From Tetradesmus obliquus (lineage: Eukaryota > Chlorophyta > Chlorophyceae > Sphaeropleales > Scenedesmaceae), in contig CP126200.1 in the NCBI GenBank assembly GCA_030272155.1, forward strand, positions 5,344,001 to 5,408,000: 64,000 nt of DNA, read 5' to 3'. Under the pieces are notes generated by a model. The model did not search any database and was not told the origin of the DNA. It saw nothing but the letters and a program-made list of their open reading frames with translations. Position numbers and translations under genes: made by a program. Below are positions 2,769 to 63,863 of the stretch, piece by piece; position 1 is the first letter of the stretch; the number at the start of each line of letters is the position of its first letter.

Positions 2769-4094
2769 CTACAGCTCCTCCTGATGCTGCACTCCAGCGT
2801 CACCGCCTGTGGCATCTGCTGCTGCGTCCTCAGCATCACCAGCCTCGTCAGCGGCTGAGTCAGCAGGCCCCAGGTCAATGTAGCTCACATAGCTGCCCAC
2901 CAGGTTCCCCAGGAACAGCCGCCGGCGGCGGCTGCCGCTGGCGTGGTCGGGCACCACTGCCTCCGTCACCGCTGACACCGCAGACACGTGGCGGCCGGTG
3001 GGGTCGGTGAGGAACTGCAGCGCCCTGCCGTCAGCATCAGCCTGCAGGAAATTGCAGCGAGTGCTGTGAACCTATCGCGCCTCAACAGAGATAGGCATTT
3101 TGACGCAACACGTAGCATGGTCCGCACATGTGACAGAAGAACCGGTCTGCCACCTCTGGTGCGCAGCGGGACCTCATGCTCAATTCACCATGAAACGACA
3201 GGCCCTGCTACGCATCAATGCTTCCACAGTACAACCACTCCCATACGCCTGCCGGCGCAGCCATAACTTGCATCACGCGCTATTGCACTGAAGCTGTGTG
3301 CCATCTCTGCGGCCCCAACACACCTTGACCACAGCGCCCCACGCCTTCAGGCCTGGCCTCAGCCGCGCGTACAGCGCGCGCACCAGGGGGTTGGCCAGCA
3401 TTTTAGACAGCAGCAGCGGCTTGAAGGGCGGAGCAGGCGCAACAAGCGAGATCCAGAAGCCCCCATCTGCTGCTGCATCCACGCCATCTGGCATGCCTGG
3501 CAGGTTGTCGATCAGCAGCTCCGTTTGGCCAGCCTGGGGAGCAAAGCGAGCCAGCGGCAGTCACAGCAGCATGGTAAATGAGCATGTGAAGTTGGTGTGG
3601 AGCTGGTAAAATCCTGCGGATCAGGCGGTGTTTGCAACCACAGTGGTTTGCAACACATTTGGCAGCCCAAACGAAAGCTGCACAGCCCTGCTGCGGCATA
3701 CTGGCAGAAAAAATGGGATTTTATCCACCACAACCAAGCGTTATGAAGCCACAATGAAGTTGTTGGCTGCCATATGCACGTGCTGGAAGTCAAACTGCTA
3801 CAACCCTCCCGGCCTGCTGTGCTAGGTCTTTGACGACGAGAAGTGAGTCAGCAACTCCGGTTGCGAATCGCACACATTTTGACCGTGTCGCATCTCCCAG
3901 ACGTAAGCTGTGAGTTGAGCTCAATTTATTACTCAGCTGTGCATGACCACAGCGAACGGGCTGACAGCAACCGCAAAGAAACTACATAACCACTCCGCAC
4001 ATGCCGAGTGATGGCACCGCAGCTCCGCAGGTAGACAGCAGATACACTCTAAATTGTTATCATATGGTTCATTGGCCGACGTGGCCCAAGTAGT

Positions 4095-4166
<72 letters not shown>

Positions 4167-5374
4167 CCATGGACAGCAGCAGCAGCAGCAGGGCAGCAGG
4201 ACAATTCCAAGCACTTCTCTTTGACAACCATGCAACAGCCAACAGCATGCACATGCTTGTGCTGTGAGCAGTGTATGCTTCTATATCGCAGCAGCACCAG
4301 ACAGCACGCAAGCAATGTTGCAGTAATCACCTTCAGCACTACACTGCCATCACCCCACGCACTGCAGTAAGAGTGCCGTAACAACACCAAATAGCTTGCG
4401 ACTCAGCGTTGGTTTGCTGTGTTCCTTCAGGTTTCTCTGCGGGCGCGGGCAACTGACCCGCCCGTGATTGTGAAGACCAAGCAGCTCATGTCTCAGGCAC
4501 CGCCCGGCAAAGATGTGAGCTTGCACCCCTCACAGCTTCCACACCTCACAGCGGCCAGCTGCTGCTGCTGTTGCGCTGCTGCAACAGCTTAACGTAACAG
4601 CCACGCTGCAGCTGACATGTATTAAGCCCCTCATATCACATCCACTTTTGCAGTGCCACTACTAGATGCGCCGTCCCATGTGCGCTGCCCCTCGGCTTGC
4701 CTCCACCTGCCGCATCCCGCAGGCGCTGTCCCTGCCATTCACAATACACCAACCTGTGTTTGAGGTGCTGAGTCCAAGCCAGCCCTACATACACTGCACC
4801 TCATCCTGTCTGCTTTCTTGCTGCTTACTTGCTGCCTGCTTACTTGCTGCGACCAAATGCAACATGCAGGTGCTGTCCCTGGCCCAAGGTGTGGTGCACT
4901 GGCCGCCGCCGCCAGCCGCCACAGCAGCTGCTTATTTACTGCTTTATTTGCTGCCTGCTTGCTTGCTGCGGCCCGTTGTGCCGTTCAGGTGCTGTCCCTG
5001 GCACAAGGTGTGGTGCACTGGCGGCCGCCGCCAGCCGCCACAGCAGCAGCAGCAGCGCTGCTAGCGGCCGAGGCAGACCAGGCTGGCAGCGGCATCAGCA
5101 GCGCCAGCGGCGGCATGCGCGCTGTGTTTGGTGCTGGGGGTGTGCACAGCTATGGGCCTGCACTAGGTCTGCCGTCACTTGTTGAGGCGCTGAAGCAGAA
5201 GCTGGCCACACGCAATGGCCTCACAGGGGTGGGCTACTTACATTTCTGTAAATCTTAGCCAGTTTGAGATTAATGTGTCTTGTATGTTGGCCAGTTGCAG
5301 ATTGCAGGCACACCAACGATCTTGCTGTACTGTTGCTTCAGTTCAGACACACTGCTGTCTCACATGGCTGGCAT

Positions 5375-5411
<37 letters not shown>

Positions 5412-8400
5412 AGTACGAGGTGATGGTCACGTCGGGTGCCAACCAGGGCTTTGTCAACGTGGTGCTGGCGCTGTGCGATGCTGCCGACCGTGTGGTGCTG
5501 TTTGTGCCCTACTACTTCAACCACATCATGGCGCTGCAGATGACAGGCGGCGCGCCACAGGTACAACTAGTACCATAGCATCACGCAGACAATAACAGTA
5601 CGGTATGCTTGCAGGCCCGTGATACGGCGTACTAGAAAGCGCCACAGGTGTGAACGCAGAGCAAAGAAGAGAATGCAGAGGATACATGTAGTGGTATGCA
5701 GGCAGGCCAATGACACACCCTAGGACTAGTCATAGTGGGACTAATATGGCGACCCAAAACATGCCCCGGTGGTGTGCTGTGAGTGGGAGGGGAGGGGAGG
5801 TGGCAGGTGGGGTAGGCTGGGGCAGCTGGGCAAGCTTTGCCTTGCTTGGCGCTGTTGAAATGCCGTGCGGGGCACGCCTGCGATGCAGTGTGCGTGTGTT
5901 TCCCACCACATGTCCGTCACACGGTGGTGTGTAGGCGCTTGGGTGCAGACCCCAGGTGGCTGGCTGGGGGGCCCTCAATCAAGTGCACTGTAGGGACCAA
6001 AGGATTGCTGCTGCTGCTGCTGCTGCAGGTGGTGCTGGGCCCCTGCTGTGCTGGCAGCCTGCATCCCGACTGGGCCTGGCTGCAGCAGCAGCTGGAGGGG
6101 CCGCAGCCTCCTAAGGTGGTGGTGCTGGTCAACCCTTGCAACCCGACTGGTGCGTGTTATGGGACAATGCACAGCTCTCACATAGTTGCCAGCTGGATAG
6201 ATTGCAGTTGTAGGGGCCGCAGTTTCCAGAGTTGGTGGTGCTTGTCAACCCCTGCAACCCAACTGGTGCGTATGTTCTGAGGGATGCATGCTGTCCTCAA
6301 AAGGCAGTAGCGCCTACCTGTAGTGCCTACTAGTGCTAGGTACTCAGGCAGTTGTGCACCGCTGCTGTTGCTTTGAACAACAGACAACAATCCAGACACA
6401 GGCACATTGAATAGCAACGCCAACAGCGTGTGTGGTGACGTGCCTTCGCTCACGCTGCGTGCAGGTGTGCTGCTGTCACAGCAGGAGCTGCAGGCAGCAG
6501 CAGCGATGTGTGCTGCGGCGGGCTGCTGGCTGCTGCTGGATGCCACCTATGAGGACTTTGTGTATGATGGTCGGCAGCACGCCAGCGTGGCAGGAGGCAA
6601 TGTGATCAGCTTGTTCAGCTTCAGCAAGGCATATGGCATGATGGGCTGGCGGGTGAGTAATGCATGGCCAGCAGCAGCCTGCAACACACTTTATCACCAA
6701 GAATCGAGCTTGGAAGTGTTGTCTGAGTTTTCTCTGAGTTGAAAAGCGGCATGATGGGCTGGCGGGTGAGCCTGCAGCCATCATCATCATCATCAGCAGC
6801 CTGTGGTCTCTCTGCATCAAGACTTGATCTGTCTACAGCCAGCAACTGCAGCACGTGCTGCGTAGGGCCCCTTGCTCTGCTTCAGGGGCATCTTAGGAGC
6901 GAGGCTGCCTGGCTGGTTGCCCATGCAGATTGCTTCAAGATTCTGCATGCGACATGTAGTTCGGGCGTGTGTGAGCATTGCACGCTGCTGCTGCTGCTAC
7001 AGGTGGGCTACATTGCGTACCCCGGCAAGCAGCTGCTGCAGCACGCACGCGCTGACACCAGCCTTGAGGAGCAGCTGCTCAAAGTAAGAACTAGTCACTC
7101 TTCTTAATCAAGAGTGCGAGGACTGGTGATTCTGTGCACAAGCTGCACACAAATGCCGTAGCGATGCTGTCTTGGCAGGCTTGTAACTGATAGTGCCGAT
7201 GGCATGTGCACACCATAGCAGCTCTGCATGCATCCACCACGTGCACAGTTGACCGATGACTGCGGCGACGCGAGTTCCTGCGTATGAAACTGCGAACACG
7301 TGTCGTGGTGTGCTTTCAAGCTCACCGAAATTGGGATGCACGCTCGCACCCAGGCACTGGCGCCACATTCACATGTTATCTTCTGTCAAGCTCCGCCGCT
7401 GCTGCATACTACCCCACTGCCTGCTCGCAGATCCAAGACACAGCCGCCGTCTGACAGGAAACTTGACAGCACACTTGCTGTCACACACAAGTGATACCTG
7501 CTGCTGGCTGCTGCGTACCGCAACGCTGCCTGCTCACAGATCCAAGACACAGTTGCCATCTGCCCCGGCCAGCTGAGTCAGCATCTGGCACTAGCAGCTC
7601 TGCAGCAGGGCAGCAGCTACGTGCAGGAGTCCATTGCTGCGCTGGCCCACAACAGGCAGCTGATTGCAGACGCGCTGTCACCCCTCGGCAGCCACGGGGA
7701 AGGCTGGGTGGGTGGTGACGGCGCTATCTATTACTTCGCAAAGCTGCCATCGAGGTTGGCAGCAGCGCCGGCCGGCTGCAGCTGTAGCGCAGGATTTGCA
7801 GCAGCAGTAGCAGCAGGCGGGACTAGCGACACGGCAGCAGACTCAGCAGTAGAAGATGCAGCAGGCTGCACGGATGAGGATGTGGTCGCATGGCTGATCC
7901 GGGAGCACGGCGTGTGTGTTATACCCGGCTCTGCTTGCGGCATGCCTGGCTGGATCAGGGTTGCGTATGCCAATGTGTCGCCGCAGCAGTGTGAGGTGGC
8001 GGCTGGCCGGCTGAAGGCGGGGCTGGAGCAGCTGCTGGGGATGGAGCGCGTGCCGGCCATGGCGTGATATGATGCGCTGCAGCTTTGAGTTGAGCTGTAG
8101 ATGTTGTTGTTAGATCGTTAGATGTTGTTGTTAAGTGTGTTTTTGGCTGCAGCTGCGAGTGCTGTTGCTGGGTGAACTCTGCATGAGCCCATCCCGGGGT
8201 GCGCTCATGGGCTAGTGCTGTTGCGCATGTTATGGTCGGCTGGTGAAGTAAGCATTTGGTGAGAGGGAGGGGCAGGGAGAGAGTGGCATGCACATGCACC
8301 ACTGTTCACATGCAGCTGATGCAACGGGCAGCCAACTTGAAGGCTGTCTGCAACACCAGTCCTGTTGTTGTTACAGCGGACCAACGCCCTGATGCGTGCG

Positions 8401-10746
8401 TGGAGGATCATAAGCTCCGTACGAGCTCCTGGTGCCCCAAACATGCGTCAGGGGCGTTGGTCCACTGTGGCGACAACAGGCGCTGCAGTTGCTTGAGCCA
8501 GCGCGCAGAGGAGGTGGCCTGCTGTGGACGCTGTCCTGCCTGGCACAGCCAGCCCCCGACAAGGTGCTGTAAACACTATTTGGGTGGGACGCGTTGTCAG
8601 TGATATTGCAGTGCACTGCAAAGTCACTGATAACGTGTCCCGTCCACATAGTGTCAACAGGACCTTGTCAGGAGCAGGCAGTGCGGTGCAGTGGATCGTT
8701 CAACACATTCTAGTAGGACAGCCAAATCAATCAATATTTGACCAGCACAGTTGAAGTTAAAAGCATTGAAGATGTTCAAAATCTGTATGCAGTGTGCATG
8801 CTCTGCAAGCAAGTCTGGGGGATGCTGTCGTGCTGTGTCTGAGCATCACATCTGTCATTGCAGCCGGTGCAGTTGCATGCTCGCGCAGCAGATCGTGGGG
8901 CGCCTGACTGGGCTATTGGTCATGTGCTGTCTTTGTGACATTAGCATTGCATTTAGCTGGCTGCAAGGTGCTGACAATCTCTAAAACAAGCAGGCTGAAG
9001 TGGCATGCAATGTCGGCTGCTTGTGCTCCTGACATGGCTCCAGGGTGCATGCGCACCCCACCTGACTAGTTGACGCGTAAGCAAGCGTTGCTTGCTGCAG
9101 CACCATGTGCATGCCAGCCAATTGTTGTTATCTGACAATCTTGGATCACCGTGTACTCAGGTGGTAGTTTGCTGCGCTGCGGTTACCACTCAAGGTGCGT
9201 GTCAGATTCATCAGTGTAAATCAGTGTATCAGTGCGGCCACTCTTAAGAGAACTGGCTTCGCCTGGGTTTTGTTGTTGACCAGCTCAGAAACAAAGTCAA
9301 CTTGACCAGAAACAACGCGAGGCCTCGTATCACAAGGGTAGGTGGTCTACCGCCTGCTGCCAGCGCTAGCAGCGGCTTTGAATCATAGGCTGTGCAAATT
9401 CTTCGCTGGTTGCTCACCTTGGGTCCCTTCAGCCAGACCTTGTGTGCGCGGATCCTGTCGGTCTCCACCAGCACCAGGAAGCTCTCATCAGCAGACAGCG
9501 CCACACCATTGGCATAGTAGAAGCCCTGGCGGCGGCAGCAGTGGTTTGAAAGGCAAAGCAGCATGACCACTTGAGGCGGGCGCGCCATGTGCGGTCAGGC
9601 CGGCAGCCTAAATGTTCACCATGCAGCCTGGCAGTACTATGCTACATGGATGAGGCTGGCAGTCTATTGTACATAAGGGCTTGGGCTGCACAGCATAGGA
9701 TGTAGCTGCGGCTAAATGCGCAGGACAGTTGCGCATTCCTTTTGGCTGCTGCACAACCCCTGCAAGTGCGCGCTGTAGCGCAGCAAAAGCCTGCATGTGA
9801 TGCTCAACCCCCGAGAGCAGAGAAAAGCATGACGTGCACATTGACTGCATGCGCTTTGACACAGCGCACATTATTGCAGCGCAAATCAAGAATCAAGCAG
9901 CTCACCGTTGCCAACACATGTGTTTCCTTTGTGTTGGGGTCATACCTGAGCAGCCGGCCCTTCGGCTGGCCCTGCAGCAGCACACAGCCGGCAGCAAGCA
10001 GCCGCAGCAGCAACACATTGGAGCTTCAGCCCGTAACACTTGCCACAGCTGCATGTGGGCAGCTGACGCCAGCTTCGTAACAACCTCACAGGTGTTACGC
10101 CCAGTACACATCAGGCATGACACAATCTTGGTGCGGCTTGCAGGGCCAGTGCTAGCCTGCGCCCCTGTTCAGGTGTCTGCTAGCAGAGTGCAACACAACC
10201 CCAGTATCATTTTTGCACGTGCGCTGCGCCACACTCCCAACTAATTTGCTATGCTTAGGAAACATAGGTGTCATCCATTAACAACTATCCAGCCCTGCTG
10301 ACACACGCGTGCTGCTGCTGTCGCTACTGCTGCTGCTACTGCTGCTGCTGCTGCTGGTGGTACCGCTGCTGTGCGCCGCACCCGCATCAGGCTGAGGAAC
10401 CACGCGCGGTACGTATCATAAAATCCTTGCTGGTTGAGCTGCGGCACGATATCCGTGCAGCTGGTGAAGTAGATGGAGCCGTCAGAGGCGATTGCCAGGT
10501 CATTTGCGTACGTAATCGGCGAGCCCGGGTCGGTGGGCGATGACGCGCTGACGTGGCTTGCCAGCAGCGTGATGTCCTTGCTCTGAGAGTCATAGTAGTT
10601 GTAGCGCAGGAGACCCTGGAAGGACATCCCAAAACGGGCCAGGGGTGCGCGCAACAACACACGTGCGGGTTACAGCGACAGCAATTTGTGCATGCAGCAG
10701 AGTGTTCAGGAGCTGGCAGACTGACAGTCCCAAGCCCTGCCGCACA

Positions 10747-23834: not shown

Positions 23835-26800
23835 ATGAGTGCTTCGCTGGCAGATGAGGGGCAAGGTATGCAAGTCAACCGAGGAATGCTACATGTTGTC
23901 TGCTGTAGCACTGCCCCACAGTTGACATGCACCACTAGCCAACACCCAACCAACTTCCCCACCTGTGCTCTTGTTGTTGCAGGGCAGTACTTCCTTGCTC
24001 GAGTGGGCGAGCAGCTGCTGCTCCCAGGTCTTCCACCACCACAGCCTGCCCCGGCTGGGATGCAATACAAGCGATGCAACTGCAAGAAGGCCAAATGCCT
24101 CAAACTGTACTGTGTATGCTTCGGAGCAGGTGGGTGCGCAGCAGTGTTACAGACAGGAACAATGCTAGCTGGGCGTGCTGCGCCAGTCAGACTGTCAGGT
24201 GCACAAGCAGCTGGCACCAATGACTCGTTTGAGTGCAAACACAAAGTGAGGAACGTGGCCGCAGTTGCCAACCCTTGCAGCAGCATGTGATGTCTTTGTT
24301 GTTGGAGGCATCCGTCATTGTTGACCACAATCCGCCAGTACAGCAGACACAGTACTGAAAACACTGACGCGCACGAGCACACCGCAACACTGGTTTTGCG
24401 TTAGTGGGTAACCCCTCTGTAACCATTGGCCACGACAATGGCTGTGACCTGGCGCCAGGTCATGCTGCCTGGCAAGTGGGTGGGCCATGACACTCGGCCA
24501 GCTGATGTCGCATGCTGCGAGCCTGCCAGGCCCCTACCCGCCAGCACGGATCACACGCTGCTGACCTGGAACCTCGTTCCTGACATGCTGCTGCGGCTGC
24601 TGCTGCTGCTGTTGCTGCGTGGCAGGCGTGTACTGCCAAGGCTGCAACTGCGTGGACTGCTCCAATGTGCCTGAGAAGCAGGCGGTTGTCTTCCAGGAGC
24701 GGCAGCGCATCCTGCAAAGGGAGCCCATGGCCTTCAGCTCAAAGGTGGGGCAAAAACAAGCAGCATTTCACCACCATTAGCTTGTTTGGCCAGCTTGTTG
24801 CTTGGTGCTGTTTCAGCAGGGGCTGCAGGTGCTGCCTGATCTTTGAAAGGGAGGTGGCGCGCGCTGTCATTGATGCGGTGCTCAGTTGGGCAACCGTAAT
24901 GTGCTGGCCACTGCGCTGCATTTGGAACCATCTCAGGCGTGCCCTTCCTGGTCAAGTGCGATTCGACGCAGGGCTGTGGTTGATGTCCTGCAGGGCAGCC
25001 GCAGGCACAGTGTTTTGCGCACAGCCTGTTGTGCTGAAGACTAAAACAGCTGTGCCCCGGGAATGTATGCATGCGGCATGCACTTTTCTTGTCACAACTG
25101 CTGCACCCGCAGCACGTATCCACACACACATAGCTGGACCGGGCAGTTGATGGCACCTGCAGAAGATGCGCCTTGTGCCACAACTTTTTGCAGCGTATGC
25201 GGCTCGCCTGCGCTCACCTTGTGCCACATGCTGCTGCTGCTGCTGCTGTGCAGGTGGTTGGCCCCGCCCACTTCAAGGGCTGCAAGTGCCGCAAGTCCCG
25301 CTGCGTGAAGAAGTACTGCGACTGCTATGACGCCAAAGTGCGCTGCTCCGACATGTGCAAGTGAGTGCTGCTGCGGTGGCAATCCAGTCAACGGTCTGTT
25401 GCTGCCGTTGGGCAGGCACATGGCTGAGCAGCTGCTTCTCCTGCAGCTAGGCTTAGCACGTAGGTGGTGCAGTTTGGGTGCAAATTGGGCAAGTCCGCCT
25501 GTCCTGCAGGCTCAGCTGGCCGGGTGAGGCTGGGGGTTCTGTGTAGTGGAACGTATCGGTTTTGAACTACTGGCTTGTGCTGCGCTGCGCCACCACGCAG
25601 GTGCAAGGACTGCCACAACCAGCCGCACAACTTCCAAGGTGGTGCCGCTGCAGCAGCTGCTGCTGCTGTGCCTGGCTATGCCAGCATGCAGCCGGTGCAG
25701 TCGCAGCAGCACTCTCTGCTGATGGCACTGCAGCAGCAGCAGCAACAGCATGGAGATGCCATGGACCTGGATATGCCTGCGCTAGCAAGGCTGCAGACGA
25801 TGCAGCAGGTGTGCAGCAGTCTCCAGCACCCAGCTGACCAACTGCAAGCCTTTATTCATGCTTGCACGAAGGCTGAATCAATGGGCCTGTTTGACAGCAA
25901 CCTCATTAGACACAGCAGTGTGTATGCTTACCGGGCCGTGGTGCACCAGCCTGATAGCTAACCCTAACAACACTGACGGCTGTACTGCAATGCTCCTCCG
26001 CAATGTATATTGGATCGTGTCCTTGCTGCCTGCTGCTGCATCTTGACTTGACATGTGACTGAGCATCATGTTGTATGGTGCCTTTGTTGCAAAGTGTGCT
26101 TCCTGCAACTCTTTACTCTGCACCTTGCAGGAGCATGGCATGGCTGCAGAGCTAGGTGCCTACCAGGGGTCTGCCCCAGCCTCCTACCCGGGCTCGCTGG
26201 GCGGCTCTCAGCCCGGCTCAGCACCCAGCAGCAGGCCAGGCTCGCCATCTGCAGCACATGCGGTAAGCAGCAAGAAGACAGCAGCAATAGCGTCAGCGGC
26301 AGCAGGCCAGGCTCGCATCTGCATCATGCGGTGAGCAGCAGCAGCAGCAGGCCGAGCTCGCCATCGGCAGCGCATGCGGTCAGCAGCAGCAGCAGCAGCA
26401 GCTGTAGCGTCTGTGGGCGTGCTGTGCGTGCAAAAGAGACTGCGATGATGAGCGGGCGGCTCGTTGTGGCTGTGGTGCAGCAGACAGCACGAGCTGGCTG
26501 CCAGCGACGAGGTGGATTCAAGGCACCCACCGCCACCGACGACCCAAACGTACTGCCAGCCCCACTGACCTGCTTCCTGTGCATCTGCTGCCTGCTATGC
26601 TGCAGCAGCCCATGCAGGTCATGCTGCGGCCAGGCGCACTGCCGCAGCTGCCTGGCAGCATGGCCAGCCTTATACGGCGGCCCTCACAGACCGGCCAGCT
26701 GCCGCCGGCTTCCTCTGCAGCAGCAGCAGCTAGCGCTGGCGTGGAGGCGTTTGGGGTGGGCGGCGGCAGCAGCAGCGGCAGCCACAGAGCTCAGCTGCTT

Positions 26801-48205: not shown

Positions 48206-49153
48206 TATGGCGCGGCTGCGTTGATCATGACGCACAGCATCTCAGCTCACTGCCCAGCATCTGTCAAACAACGCTTTCACAGTGTCACCCGGTGCTGCTG
48301 CTGTGAACTCACGAATTGTAGACTGCTGTGTTGTGAATTTTAAGGGTGCACGAGCATTGCCGCAATGCAGTGGTGGCAGCACTTGCGTGGAACGGCAAAG
48401 CAGCGCCCCCCAGGTCTTACACATTGATCAACAATCTGCTCAGGCGAGCTGCAGCGCTGGGCCCAGGCAGCATTGCCTGCCCCGCTGCACAGCACATCTT
48501 CTATAGATACTAGTAGCTGCAGGCCGGCATTACAAGCACAATACAACATAATGCACAGCTGGAGCACCATGGCAGCCTACAGCTCAACGCAGCCGCAACA
48601 GACCTTGCACAGTTAGATGCTAGCGTCACGCACTGCAGCCGGCAGCTGCCTGGTAGATCATGAGTGCAGGCGCGCAGCGCTGCATTCATCTTGCAAAAAG
48701 TCATCGTTTTTCATGCACGCTACCATCAGCGCCTGCCACGTCACGTCCTACAAGATTGAGCGGCATTTAAAAACGCACAGCCGGTGCTGAGCACCAGCAG
48801 CGGTCCACTAGTGCGTCTTCATAACCACATCATCAGCTAGCACTAGTGCGTGCAACAGGCTGCTCTGAAAGCATCACAGCCGCTTGGCACATCATGCACA
48901 GATACATGTGCGGCTGCAGCTGCCGCGCACACTGCAGCACAAACCACGCAGCGCGCTGGCTTGCACTGCTGCTGCGCCTTGCACGACGAGTGCTGCCCAC
49001 ACTGAGCTGCACAACATCACCCATTGCATGCATCAAAACGTCGGTGGCTCAGCACCTCCTATCACTCGCACAGCCGCCAGCCAAGGCATCAAGCCCCATG
49101 ATGGCTGGGACATCCCACCTAACCCCCAGCCACCTCCTCAAGCTGAGGCAACC

Positions 49154-49367
49154 GGCAGCTGACACAACCGGCATCTGACACAACCGGCATTTGACACAAC
49201 CGGCATCTGACACAACCGGCAGTTGACACAACTGGCAGCTGACACAACTGGCAGCTGACACAACCGGCACCTCACACAACCGGCAGCTGACACAACTGGC
49301 AGCTGACACAACTGGCAGCTGACACAACCGGCAGCTGACACAACCGGCAGCTGACACAACCGGCAGC
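49154..49367 (+). repeat. 16-bp minisatellite, about 13 copies
   Basis: The consensus is GGCAGCTGACACAACC with point variants (GGCATCTG, GGCAGTTG, CACCTCAC). Because 16 is not a multiple of three, the cysteine-rich periodic frames it creates on the minus strand are artefacts. Confidence 0.95.
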
Positions 49368-50968: not shown

Positions 50969-51148
50969 GGCCCTGCAAAGGCAACCGCACACGGCATGTG
51001 CTGCGGCCCTGCAAAGGCAACCGCACACGGCATGTGCTGCGGCCCTGCAAAGGCAACCGCACACGGCATGTGCTGCGGCCCTGCAAAGGCAACCGCACAC
51101 GGCATGTGCTGCGGCCCTGCAAAGGCAACCGCACACGGCATGTGCTGC
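50969..51148 (+). repeat. 36-bp minisatellite, five almost identical copies
   Basis: Units start at 50969, 51005, 51041, 51077 and 51113 with essentially no differences, pointing to recent expansion. The unit begins GGCCCTGCAAAGG and ends GGCATGTGCTGC. It keeps frame (12 codons, RPCKGNRTRHVL) but no gene context supports coding. Confidence 0.95.
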
Positions 51149-52925: not shown

Positions 52926-55569
52926 GCAAAGCCAGGCTCAACGCGTGGGCGCTTCACTGGCAGCTGTCCATGCTGCTGGTACTGCTGCTGCTGCTGCTGT
53001 GGGTAGTGGTGATGGTGCTGCTGCTGGTTGTCGCTCGCGTGCTCCCGCTTGACACCATATCCACTGCCACCTGCGCGCTGCATGCCGCCACTGCGCGGCG
53101 ATGCAAGGCTGCCGCCAGCATGCTGCTGCTGCTGCTGCTGGCTGCCGCCATTGAGCAGCGAGCTCAAGCCAGCCGGCCCTGACTGAGCCAGCTGAGTCAG
53201 CAGCGACATCAGCTGCTGCGGCCCTGCGCCGCCGGCTGCAGCTGCTACAGCCGCATCTGCAATGCTTGCGGCCAGGCCGCCTGCTGCTGCTGCCCCAGGG
53301 CTCAGTGGCTGCTCCTCTGCTGCTGCTGCTGCATGGTGAGGGCGCTGGTGCTGGTGTGGGGGGTGCGGGTGCAGGTGCGGCTGCTGCGAGTGCTGCTGGT
53401 GGTGCTGGTGGTGGTGCTCCTGATGGCTGTAGCTGCCGCCGCCGCGCGCATGGCTGTGGCCATGCGCGTGCTGTGCTGCTGCTGCGCCGCCCTCAGCAGC
53501 TGCCTTGCTGAGCTCCTTCTGCAGCCCTGTCGCCAGCTCATCCACCACCAGCAGCTGCTGCACAAAGCCCAGGCTGCGGATCGAGGTGATGCCGGGGCCC
53601 TTGCCACTGGCAATCGCAGACGCGATGTGCAGCCGCAGCTGCTGCAGGCTCAGCGGCGGCCCAGCAGCTTCTGCTGCTGCTGAGCCAGGCCGGGGCTCGA
53701 CAGGGCCTACACTGCCTGCAGGCCACTGGCCCATGCCATCGTCCCAGCCTGCGCCGTGCTGCTGCTGCTGCTGCTGATGGTGGTGGTGGTGCTGCGGCGC
53801 GTGGTGGCCGTGCTGCTGCTGCTGTTGCTGCTGCTGCTGGCTGTAGTCATACGGCATCATCTGCTGCGGCAGCTGCTGCGAGGAATAGGGCACACTCATG
53901 CCATAGTGCTCGCCCCCAGCAGCATGGCCACCCAGCTGCTGCGCCCCAGGGTAGCCACCAGCGTACGGCTCCGCTGCTGCAGCCGCAACAGCAGCTGCTG
54001 CGCCGGGGCCCTCCCAAGCCAAGCTGTTGATGCTGCCGCTCTTGCGCATGCCGCGGCGGCCCTGCTGCTGCTGCTGAGGCGGCATAACCTGCTGGTACCC
54101 GCCGTAGCCACCATGCACAGGCATGCTCGCCGCTGCCGCCGGATCCAACATTGGATCCACTGCTCCTGCGCCGTACTCAGCGCCTAGATAATCAGCGTCG
54201 CCGTATGTGTAACCGCCACCCATCATGCGCTCGCCATCCAGGTCCCGGCTATCCTCATCAGACAGGCCGTCAGAGCCCGACACAGCCGCCGCCGCAAACG
54301 CGGCCGCAGCAGCACGCGCCGCCGCGCGCTTGCCGCCGCCGCCGCGCTGCGGGCTGCCGCCGGCTGCGCCGGACGGGCTCACGCTGCTGCCACCGCCGCC
54401 GCGCGAGCTGGACTCCGGGTTGCCGCCGCCACGGTTGCGGGTGCCGCCGGCGGCTGCGGCGGCTGCTGCGGCGGCGGCCTTGTTGCTCTGCGTCTGCGTC
54501 TTCCTGCGGCAGCGGCGCCGCAGGTTGTGGCGGTCCAGCTGCACGCGGCAGGACTTGCGGCTGCCGTCAAAATCCGGCAGCGGGTGCATGATGCCGCACT
54601 GCTGGCAAAAGCTGCAGCAGCAGCAGCAGCAGCGAGGGCAGATTTATTATGAAGCAGTGGATAACAGATGCCATCAAAGTCTGGCAGCCAGTGCATGATA
54701 CCGCACTGCTGACAGAAGCTGTGTGAGAGTGCACGTGCAGGTGTTCAGGTGAACGGGTGTGCAGCAGCAGGGCAAGCAGGCAAAACACTTGAGTTATCTT
54801 CAAAACTAGTACATCAACTGTCAATGGCAGTTTGCAGTCACACTCACCGCATGGCGATGCCGCTGATGAGCACCTGGTCTGCCTTGGCGTGGCTGAGGCA
54901 CACGCGGTGACGCCGGAAGTAAGTGGACACACCCGCTGCATTGAGGTTGGCGTGGCAGCCGGGCACCTGCGCAGCAGCACACACAAGGCACGCAGGCGGC
55001 AGCAGTGAGCCTGTGGGTGCTGCGCATGGCAGCAGGTAGGCGAGACAGCAAGCAAGGGCTGTGCTGCCGCTGGGTGCGCGGAAGTTGGCTGCGGCAGTAC
55101 TCGGCACTGCTTGTGCACCCTGACAAAACACACTGCAGAGCACAAATACATGCAAGCAAACAACCAGGCTTGACATGCGCGACAACACTAACACCTCCGC
55201 ACAGCAGCAGCAGCAGCAGCAGCAGCAGCGCACCTGGCACGCCACGCCGTCGGGCTTGGTGAGCATGGGCATGGAGGGCTCGCCGTACTTGCTGCCCTCA
55301 AGCATGAGCTGGTTCAGCGACACGCGCGCCTGCCGGCCCGAGCCATCCTTGCGCCCAGAGCCTGACGGCACGCGCGGCCGCGGCGTTGCTGCTGCGGCGC
55401 CCGGCAGGTACATCCCTTGGTGCGGGTGCTGCTGCTGCTGCAGGTGGTGCTGAGCATGCGGGTGCATTGTGGCAGCAGCTGCTGCTGCTGCTGACATGGA
55501 GCCGTCCTGCGGCAGCAAGCCTGCTGCTTCACCCAGCAGCTCAAGGCCTAGGCTGAACTGGGGAACCTG

Positions 55570-58644: not shown

Positions 58645-63863
<5,219 letters not shown>

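Follow-up and report, generated by a model that had tools for sequence, protein, structure and literature searches.

Local copies of exon edges and a preferred duplication length of about 120 bp in the genome of Tetradesmus obliquus

Exon-Edge Copies in an ISS1-like Aminotransferase Gene

The window, i.e. the stretch of 64,000 nucleotides analyzed here (G000:C10:5344001-5408000), is part of the 104.66-Mb genome of Tetradesmus obliquus, which comprises 17 contigs. It contains a gene for an ISS1-like aminotransferase, the predicted product of which matches the Pfam family Aminotran_1_2 and also proteins called ISS1 by their sources; its best protein match, P0001, carries the name 'hypothetical protein OEZ86_005827 [Tetradesmus obliquus]'. 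This gene has seven introns, and introns 2, 5, 6 and 7 each contain a second copy of an exon edge at an offset of 119, 116, 113 and 109 bp, respectively. Two of these copies reproduce an acceptor edge (D1 and D4) and two a donor edge (D2 and D7), and the splice site is included in all four pairs. A preliminary description of this DNA had listed the same four copies, evenly divided between acceptor and donor sides, and both statements were borne out. The features are given below, with exon 1 of the gene placed with the aid of P0001 and with "decoy" denoting the copy inside the intron.

3999-8068, ISS1-like aminotransferase gene (P0001)
4696..4734, forward strand, weaker third copy (decoy), within intron 2, of the acceptor edge of exon 3 (D3; 72% against 4843-4881)
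4825..4931, forward strand, D1 decoy within intron 2, matching the acceptor edge of exon 3 and exon-like from 4870 onward (pair 4825-4931/4944-5050, offset 119 bp, 87% identity)
4944..5050, forward strand, D1 real acceptor edge of intron 2/exon 3, exon start 4989 (on a basis that includes P0001)
6088..6155, forward strand, D2 real donor edge of exon 5/intron 5, exon end 6149, donor GTGCGT (pair 6088-6155/6204-6271, offset 116 bp, 85% identity)
6204..6271, forward strand, D2 decoy of the exon-5 donor edge in intron 5, holding an in-frame stop
6635..6657, forward strand, D7 real donor edge of exon 6/intron 6, exon end 6652, donor GTGAGT (pair 6635-6657/6748-6770, offset 113 bp, 23/23 identical)
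6748..6770, forward strand, D7 decoy within intron 6, matching the donor edge of exon 6
7398..7453, forward strand, D4 decoy within intron 7, matching the acceptor edge of exon 8, exon-like from 7431 onward and meeting an in-frame stop at its very end (by eye) (pair 7398-7453/7507-7562, offset 109 bp, 82% identity)
7507..7562, forward strand, D4 real acceptor edge of intron 7/exon 8, exon start 7540

In an ungapped scan, D1, D2, D7 and D4 scored 32.5, 43, 23 and 29, respectively, all higher than anything found in shuffled DNA. When the exon edges were aligned against the introns with gaps, intron 2 reached 55 against a shuffle mean of 9.6 and intron 5 reached 40 against 8.3. Introns 6 and 7 merely equaled the top of 200 shuffles (18.0 vs. 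18.1 and 16.3 vs. 16.5, respectively), scores that are modest because the homology there is short, and in introns 1, 3 and 4 the same gapped test detected no edge copy beyond the shuffle range. The four introns with copies measure 474, 317, 350 and 457 bp, respectively (for these lengths and the gapped test, as for the count of substitutions and stops, exon ends or frames of the window gene are inexact in places). Since they are longer than the units of 109-119 bp, these introns look enlarged rather than newly formed, in line with the preliminary description.

Elsewhere in the window, four further local pairs were recorded, the last with a score of 16 only:

26240..26264, no strand assigned, local direct repeat (offset 116, 25 bp, 92%)
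54562..54607, no strand assigned, local direct repeat (offset 107, 46 bp, 85%)
60350..60403, no strand assigned, local direct repeat (offset 124, 54 bp, 91%)
355, local pair (offset 112)

Two minisatellites, at 49141-49351 and 50969-51118, are built of 16-bp and 36-bp units, respectively.

A Second ISS1 Gene on Contig C15

A second ISS1 gene is located at C15:2.381 Mb (locus L009), with P0008 as its annotated protein. P0004, an uninterrupted protein of 443 aa obtained from four contigs, none longer than 2,087 bases, was taken as cDNA-like. Edge copies in L009 were located by aligning P0004 with the locus, and an offset scan supplied more:

3589, donor copy of exon 3429-3542 (P0004 alignment)
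4239 and 4378, acceptor copies upstream of exon 4778-4933 (P0004 alignment)
near 4640, acceptor copy with an in-frame stop (offset scan)
4995, 5100 and ~5230, donor copies downstream of exon 4778-4933, with a decayed one at ~5390 (P0004 alignment)
5772-5879, donor copy (P0004 alignment)
6962, acceptor copy (P0004 alignment)
7140, donor pair (offset scan, offset 178)
8032-8107/8188-8263, stop-codon pair (73/76 identical)

In the stop-codon pair, the last coding bases are copied and the block ends 2 bases before the stop codon, with no splice site involved. Public gene models appear wrong near the copies: P0001 is without VVLGPCCAGSLHPDWAWLQ, and P0008 counts one decoy as an exon and holds the NPCNPT edge twice, while each edge occurs once in P0004. 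Decoys thus mislead gene prediction, the doubled NPCNPT edge being an example.

A comparison of the two paralogs by eye showed that 17 nt separate the positions of one intron, which lies within KAYG in C15 and after GMMGWR in C10. The 113-bp decoy of C10 (6635-6657/6748-6770) consists of this 17-nt stretch, one additional base and the donor (by eye; L009 5637, 7066). This one decoy matching the 17-nt gap suggests that edge duplication may have moved the intron, i.e. that it may have slid. A second intron is shifted by 34 nt between the paralogs (in C15 it precedes MALQ, in C10 it follows APQ; by eye), inside an edge that has been copied repeatedly (L009 acceptor copies 4231-4850; window 5560).

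Frequency and Size of Local Copies in the Genome

Twenty-five further loci of 10 kb, 18 at chosen round coordinates and 7 at random, were surveyed by an ungapped scan over all offsets after masking of repeats with a period up to 30; contigs 16 and 17 were unsampled. Across 20 sources (the window, L009 and L011-L028), 185 offset segments scored at least 20 in the real DNA, compared with 0 in dinucleotide shuffles. At a score of at least 19, 168 pairs of neighboring copies were found in 27 sources covering 323,901 bases. The 25 loci hold 137 of these pairs, with 20 at offsets of 30-89 bp, 75 at 90-149 bp, 12 at 150-209 bp, 22 at 210-269 bp and 8 at longer ones. The 75 pairs at 90-149 bp are spread over 15 of the 25 loci, and L035, L011 and L012 contribute 35 of them. 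Counted as sites per 30-bp bin in the same loci, 5 fall at 60-89 bp, 27 at 90-119 bp, 25 at 120-149 bp and 5 at 150-179 bp, while pooling 90-149 bp gives 40 sites. The preferred offsets therefore lie at 90-149 bp, with most at 115-119 bp, and the 82 offsets of 80-160 bp at the other loci have a mean of 120.4 and an sd of 17.6. An independent caller, TRF, reported 39 arrays with a period of at least 25 in the 27 sources (20 at 25-59, 2 at 60-99, 10 at 100-139 and 7 longer), of which the 20 at 25-59 are minisatellites. The group at 210-269 bp, about twice the unit, originates mainly from L029 and may represent arrays missing their middle copy.

The preliminary description had argued from the similar offsets in the window gene to a common mechanism, such as staggered-break repair or slippage over a fixed length, and had proposed to examine offset lengths across the genome. 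The offset scan of the 25 loci does yield a peak, at 90-149 bp, and a common mutational mechanism is likely, since the size preference (75 of 137 pairs) is found outside the window gene. The preference is broad, however, and does not correspond to a fixed length. Moreover, four offsets drawn from the 82 values at other loci spread over 10 bp or less with a probability of 0.023, and the narrow range of 109-119 bp within the window gene is thus partly a matter of luck.

Extrapolation from the 25 loci gives about 31,000 repeat pairs per genome (95% interval 17,000-48,000), counting those at exon edges and elsewhere. With all sources pooled, offsets leave a remainder of 0, 1 or 2 on division by three in 28, 38 and 35 cases, respectively, i.e. 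without a bias to multiples of three. Protein-level repeats (TPR, PPR, WD40 and the like) were rejected as a general account, given that the period is not a multiple of three and the filler between the copies is not coding-like, although individual arrays, for instance L011 5716-6222, may be of this kind.

Repeated Blocks and Their Flanks

The repeated blocks are mostly 20-100 bp long. Of 61 pairs, 47 have copies that exceed the intervening filler in coding likeness (p = 1.7e-5), and the GC content of the copies is 63% compared with 53% for the fillers. Pfam matched 4 of 10 translated stretches (one below the curated cut-off), and the families of genes with copies at the other loci include HAT_KAT11 (L025), GTP_EFTU (L015) and CCB2_CCB4 (L018). 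One intron of L025 carries a donor-edge copy (106 bp, 56/56 identical) together with an acceptor-edge copy (111 bp); a third, decayed donor copy lies further along (by eye).

Homology of the filler to a flank was detected for 22 of the 38 high-identity pairs, or for 23 of 40 when the cut was set a little differently. With the first 7 bases of the intron excluded, matched flanks scored 11.6 (range 4.7-21.8) and mismatched flanks 5.1 (p = 7e-5) in nine hand-picked cases, these being nine of ten edge cases, the tenth of which was dropped as a repeat of an edge. In 30 high-identity pairs chosen by rule, flank homology was likewise detected on the right (p = 8e-6) and on the left (p = 8e-4). The homology of the non-coding flanks is therefore weak but significant, which indicates that duplication of the units included their non-coding part.

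In contrast, coding ends that are nearly identical adjoin these hardly alignable flanks. Over the last 50 coding bases, 47-50 of 50 match in five of the ten edge cases, and the remaining five have 45, 42, 41, 34 and 26 matches. Plain decay of a tandem duplication was rejected as a full account, as equal aging of both parts is incompatible with a coding divergence of 0-4% next to flanks that can barely be aligned. Among the 26 pairs passing a coding-score filter, nearly all from other loci, 52 nonsynonymous differences were counted, whereas neutrality of one copy predicts 53.9, a good fit. The phase excess of the differences (349 vs. 318.9, sd 7.2) fits one constrained copy. Since selection on the decoys is not seen in these 26 pairs, re-copying of the exon onto the decoy is the preferred explanation of their similarity.

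Proposed Mechanism and Alternatives

The size peak, the homology of the adjoining non-coding sequence and the contrast between coding and non-coding parts are direct observations. For their origin we favor, with a probability of roughly 0.6, recurrent tandem duplication of units of about 120 bp, whereby duplications crossing a coding border are tolerated and stay recognizable through their near-identical coding part. In detail, the T. obliquus genome would undergo repeated local tandem duplication with a favored unit length near 120 bp (mostly 90-150 bp). When such a unit spans the border between coding and non-coding sequence, the extra copy would land in an intron or UTR, and because the original exon edge stays usable, the duplication would be tolerated. 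The intron would thereby be lengthened, with a decoy edge and its splice site left behind, and the link to exon edges would probably reflect the survival of duplications on coding/non-coding borders. The non-coding part of the copy would then diverge fast, while the coding part would most likely be kept near-identical by re-copying of the selected exon onto the decoy, through short-tract gene conversion or template switching, presumably as far as the surviving flank homology extends. The site contiguous with the exon is expected to be the spliced one. By analogy with known duplications at breaks, the units may originate from break repair by staggered-end fill-in and end joining, in which case the unit length would reflect the distance between the nicks. 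A wider claim, according to which hyperactive duplication in steps of about 120 bp and ongoing re-copying are a main source of intron lengthening and sliding in this lineage, with some 10^4 copied units per genome, is tentative and in our judgment doubtful.

The alternative that survives best, although unlikely, is templated insertion, in which repair of a break within an intron would copy the neighboring exon edge alone, and the filler would be old intron. It would fit the sharp-edged copies with 56/56 and 64/65 identity next to strongly diverged flanks, as well as the 16 of 38 high-identity pairs in which no filler homology was detected pair by pair. However, flank homology is present even in these two sharp-edged cases (scores of 13.2 for 56/56 and 12.8 for 64/65, compared with the mismatched mean of 5.1), and offsets are alike with and without filler homology (means of 120.0 and 120.6, KS p = 0.37, 22 vs. 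16 pairs). Furthermore, templated insertion leaves unexplained why copies end at the coding border.

Copying by a mechanism that recognizes splice sites (an introner-like element, for example, or an insertion tied to splicing intermediates) would also place exon edges in introns, but it is improbable. The connection with splice sites suggested in the preliminary description does hold in part. Besides the splice site in 4 of 4 window-gene pairs, block ends show a roughly threefold higher density of strict donor motifs that both copies share (69 blocks), with 12.4 per 1000 within 11 nt of the ends vs. 4.1 inside (12 in 966 end positions vs. 23 in 5646 inner positions, p = 0.003). Excluding L011, the counts are 11 in 826 and 13 in 4746, respectively (p = 0.0003). 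Nevertheless, the clear C15 case ends beside a stop codon without any splice site, and a splice site is therefore not essential for copying. Diverged homology common to the flanks also disagrees with this explanation, and the blocks of mostly 20-100 bp are longer than the target-site duplications of 3-9 bp described for some introner families in excerpts of PMC9860276. The sole filler searched genome-wide, L025:4800-4880, gave one match, itself, which speaks against a mobile filler in this one case.

Even less probable is that the decoys function as exon ends, either alternative or mutually exclusive, and are maintained by selection. The C15 gene offers evidence in favor: its 11 decoys have 46 synonymous and 18 nonsynonymous differences, compared with 38.3 nonsynonymous ones expected under neutrality (p = 3e-7, a value overstated by the shared ancestry of the copies, in a total that omits the decayed copy c5 and has the window decoys D1 and D4 outside it, these two having been read in a wrong frame). 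Two of the C15 decoys, namely the 3474 pair and c3, deviate from the exon solely at synonymous positions (6/6 and 5/5, respectively), and the P0008 model takes one decoy as an exon. The C15 decoys thus look conserved at the protein level, and neither neutrality alone nor conversion alone accounts for them. On the other hand, the nonsynonymous count of the 26 coding-like pairs fits one neutral copy, in-frame stops interrupt the decoy at 6204-6271 of the window and the C15 copy near 4640, offsets do not favor multiples of three, and each edge is single in the cDNA-like P0004.

Chance similarity or an assembly artefact, for which nothing speaks beyond the usual caution with repeats, is hardly credible in view of the absence of such segments from the shuffles, fillers that differ from one another, copies in graded states of decay, and an assembly of 17 contigs with an N50 of 6,100 (unit read as kb) and a total of 104.70 Mb (GCA_030272155.1, as given in excerpts of PMC12571836).

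Comparison with Known Systems

Small tandem duplications arise at breaks when fill-in by Pol alpha-primase/CST is followed by end joining, and among short insertions (<100 bp) in human DNA they are described as the most common (excerpts of PMC8355091). The T. obliquus copies resemble them as short, local, head-to-tail copies that lengthen the locus, and the second copy includes adjoining sequence (filler homology in 22 of 38 pairs and flanks at p = 7e-5 in nine edge cases, with none detected singly in 16 of 38 pairs). In contrast to the duplications described there, those of T. obliquus form a standing load with a peak at about 120 bp and have hit coding borders repeatedly.

In a potato RdRp gene, a single duplication across an intron-exon boundary created a new intron (excerpts of PMC4974935). 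The T. obliquus duplications span such boundaries as well, whereas here existing introns appear to grow, the extra edge becomes a decoy, and many cases are present instead of one. Likewise, in the tandem-duplication route of intron gain according to Rogers, a duplicated AGGT segment of an exon becomes an intron of unit length, while the four introns with copies in the window gene measure 317-474 bp, more than the unit, and the copy lies inside the intron. Introners share with the present case the large scale of intron change, green algae included (excerpts of PMC9860276), but the T. obliquus blocks are copies of the local exon instead of a common element, and the one tested filler is without relatives in the genome. 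Intron sliding and near intron pairs (PMC2891723) are similar in combining tandem duplication near an intron with shifted positions between related genes; in T. obliquus, sliding is only suggested, by the decoy that matches the 17-nt gap. Small tandem duplications as such are known, while the literature searched, the coverage of which is incomplete, yielded no description of a genome whose duplication load on coding borders is size-peaked.

Intron growth and shifting are usually inferred from rare single cases. With an estimated 31,000 or so pairs in graded decay, the step that sets the size, what becomes of decoy splice sites and a possible conversion from exon to decoy are accessible to statistical study.

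Segmental and Dispersed Repeats

Segmental repeats with a spacing of about 24 kb are present at G000:C3:7.40-7.48 Mb (L005-L008), where L007 equals L008 over 3,058 bp. Among these tandem copies, L005 and L006 have edge-like repeats (offsets 132 and 135) and L007 and L008 have none; the surrounding sequence is rearranged, and the difference between L005/L006 and L007/L008 may be a gain or a loss. In two whole-genome searches for a recent paralog with or without the unit, one query matched only its own locus and an adjacent stretch of 88 bp, whereas a dispersed repeat flooded the other, for which 40 out of 240 candidates were scored. A repeat of about 139 bp at L034:4534-4672, without an Rfam match, is dispersed over at least 39 other places of the genome at 85-95% identity. 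Longer arrays were also observed, namely a 100-bp unit repeated 5.3 times at L012:6493 and units of 220-254 bp, about twice the usual step, at L029:947-1534 and 7203-8528.
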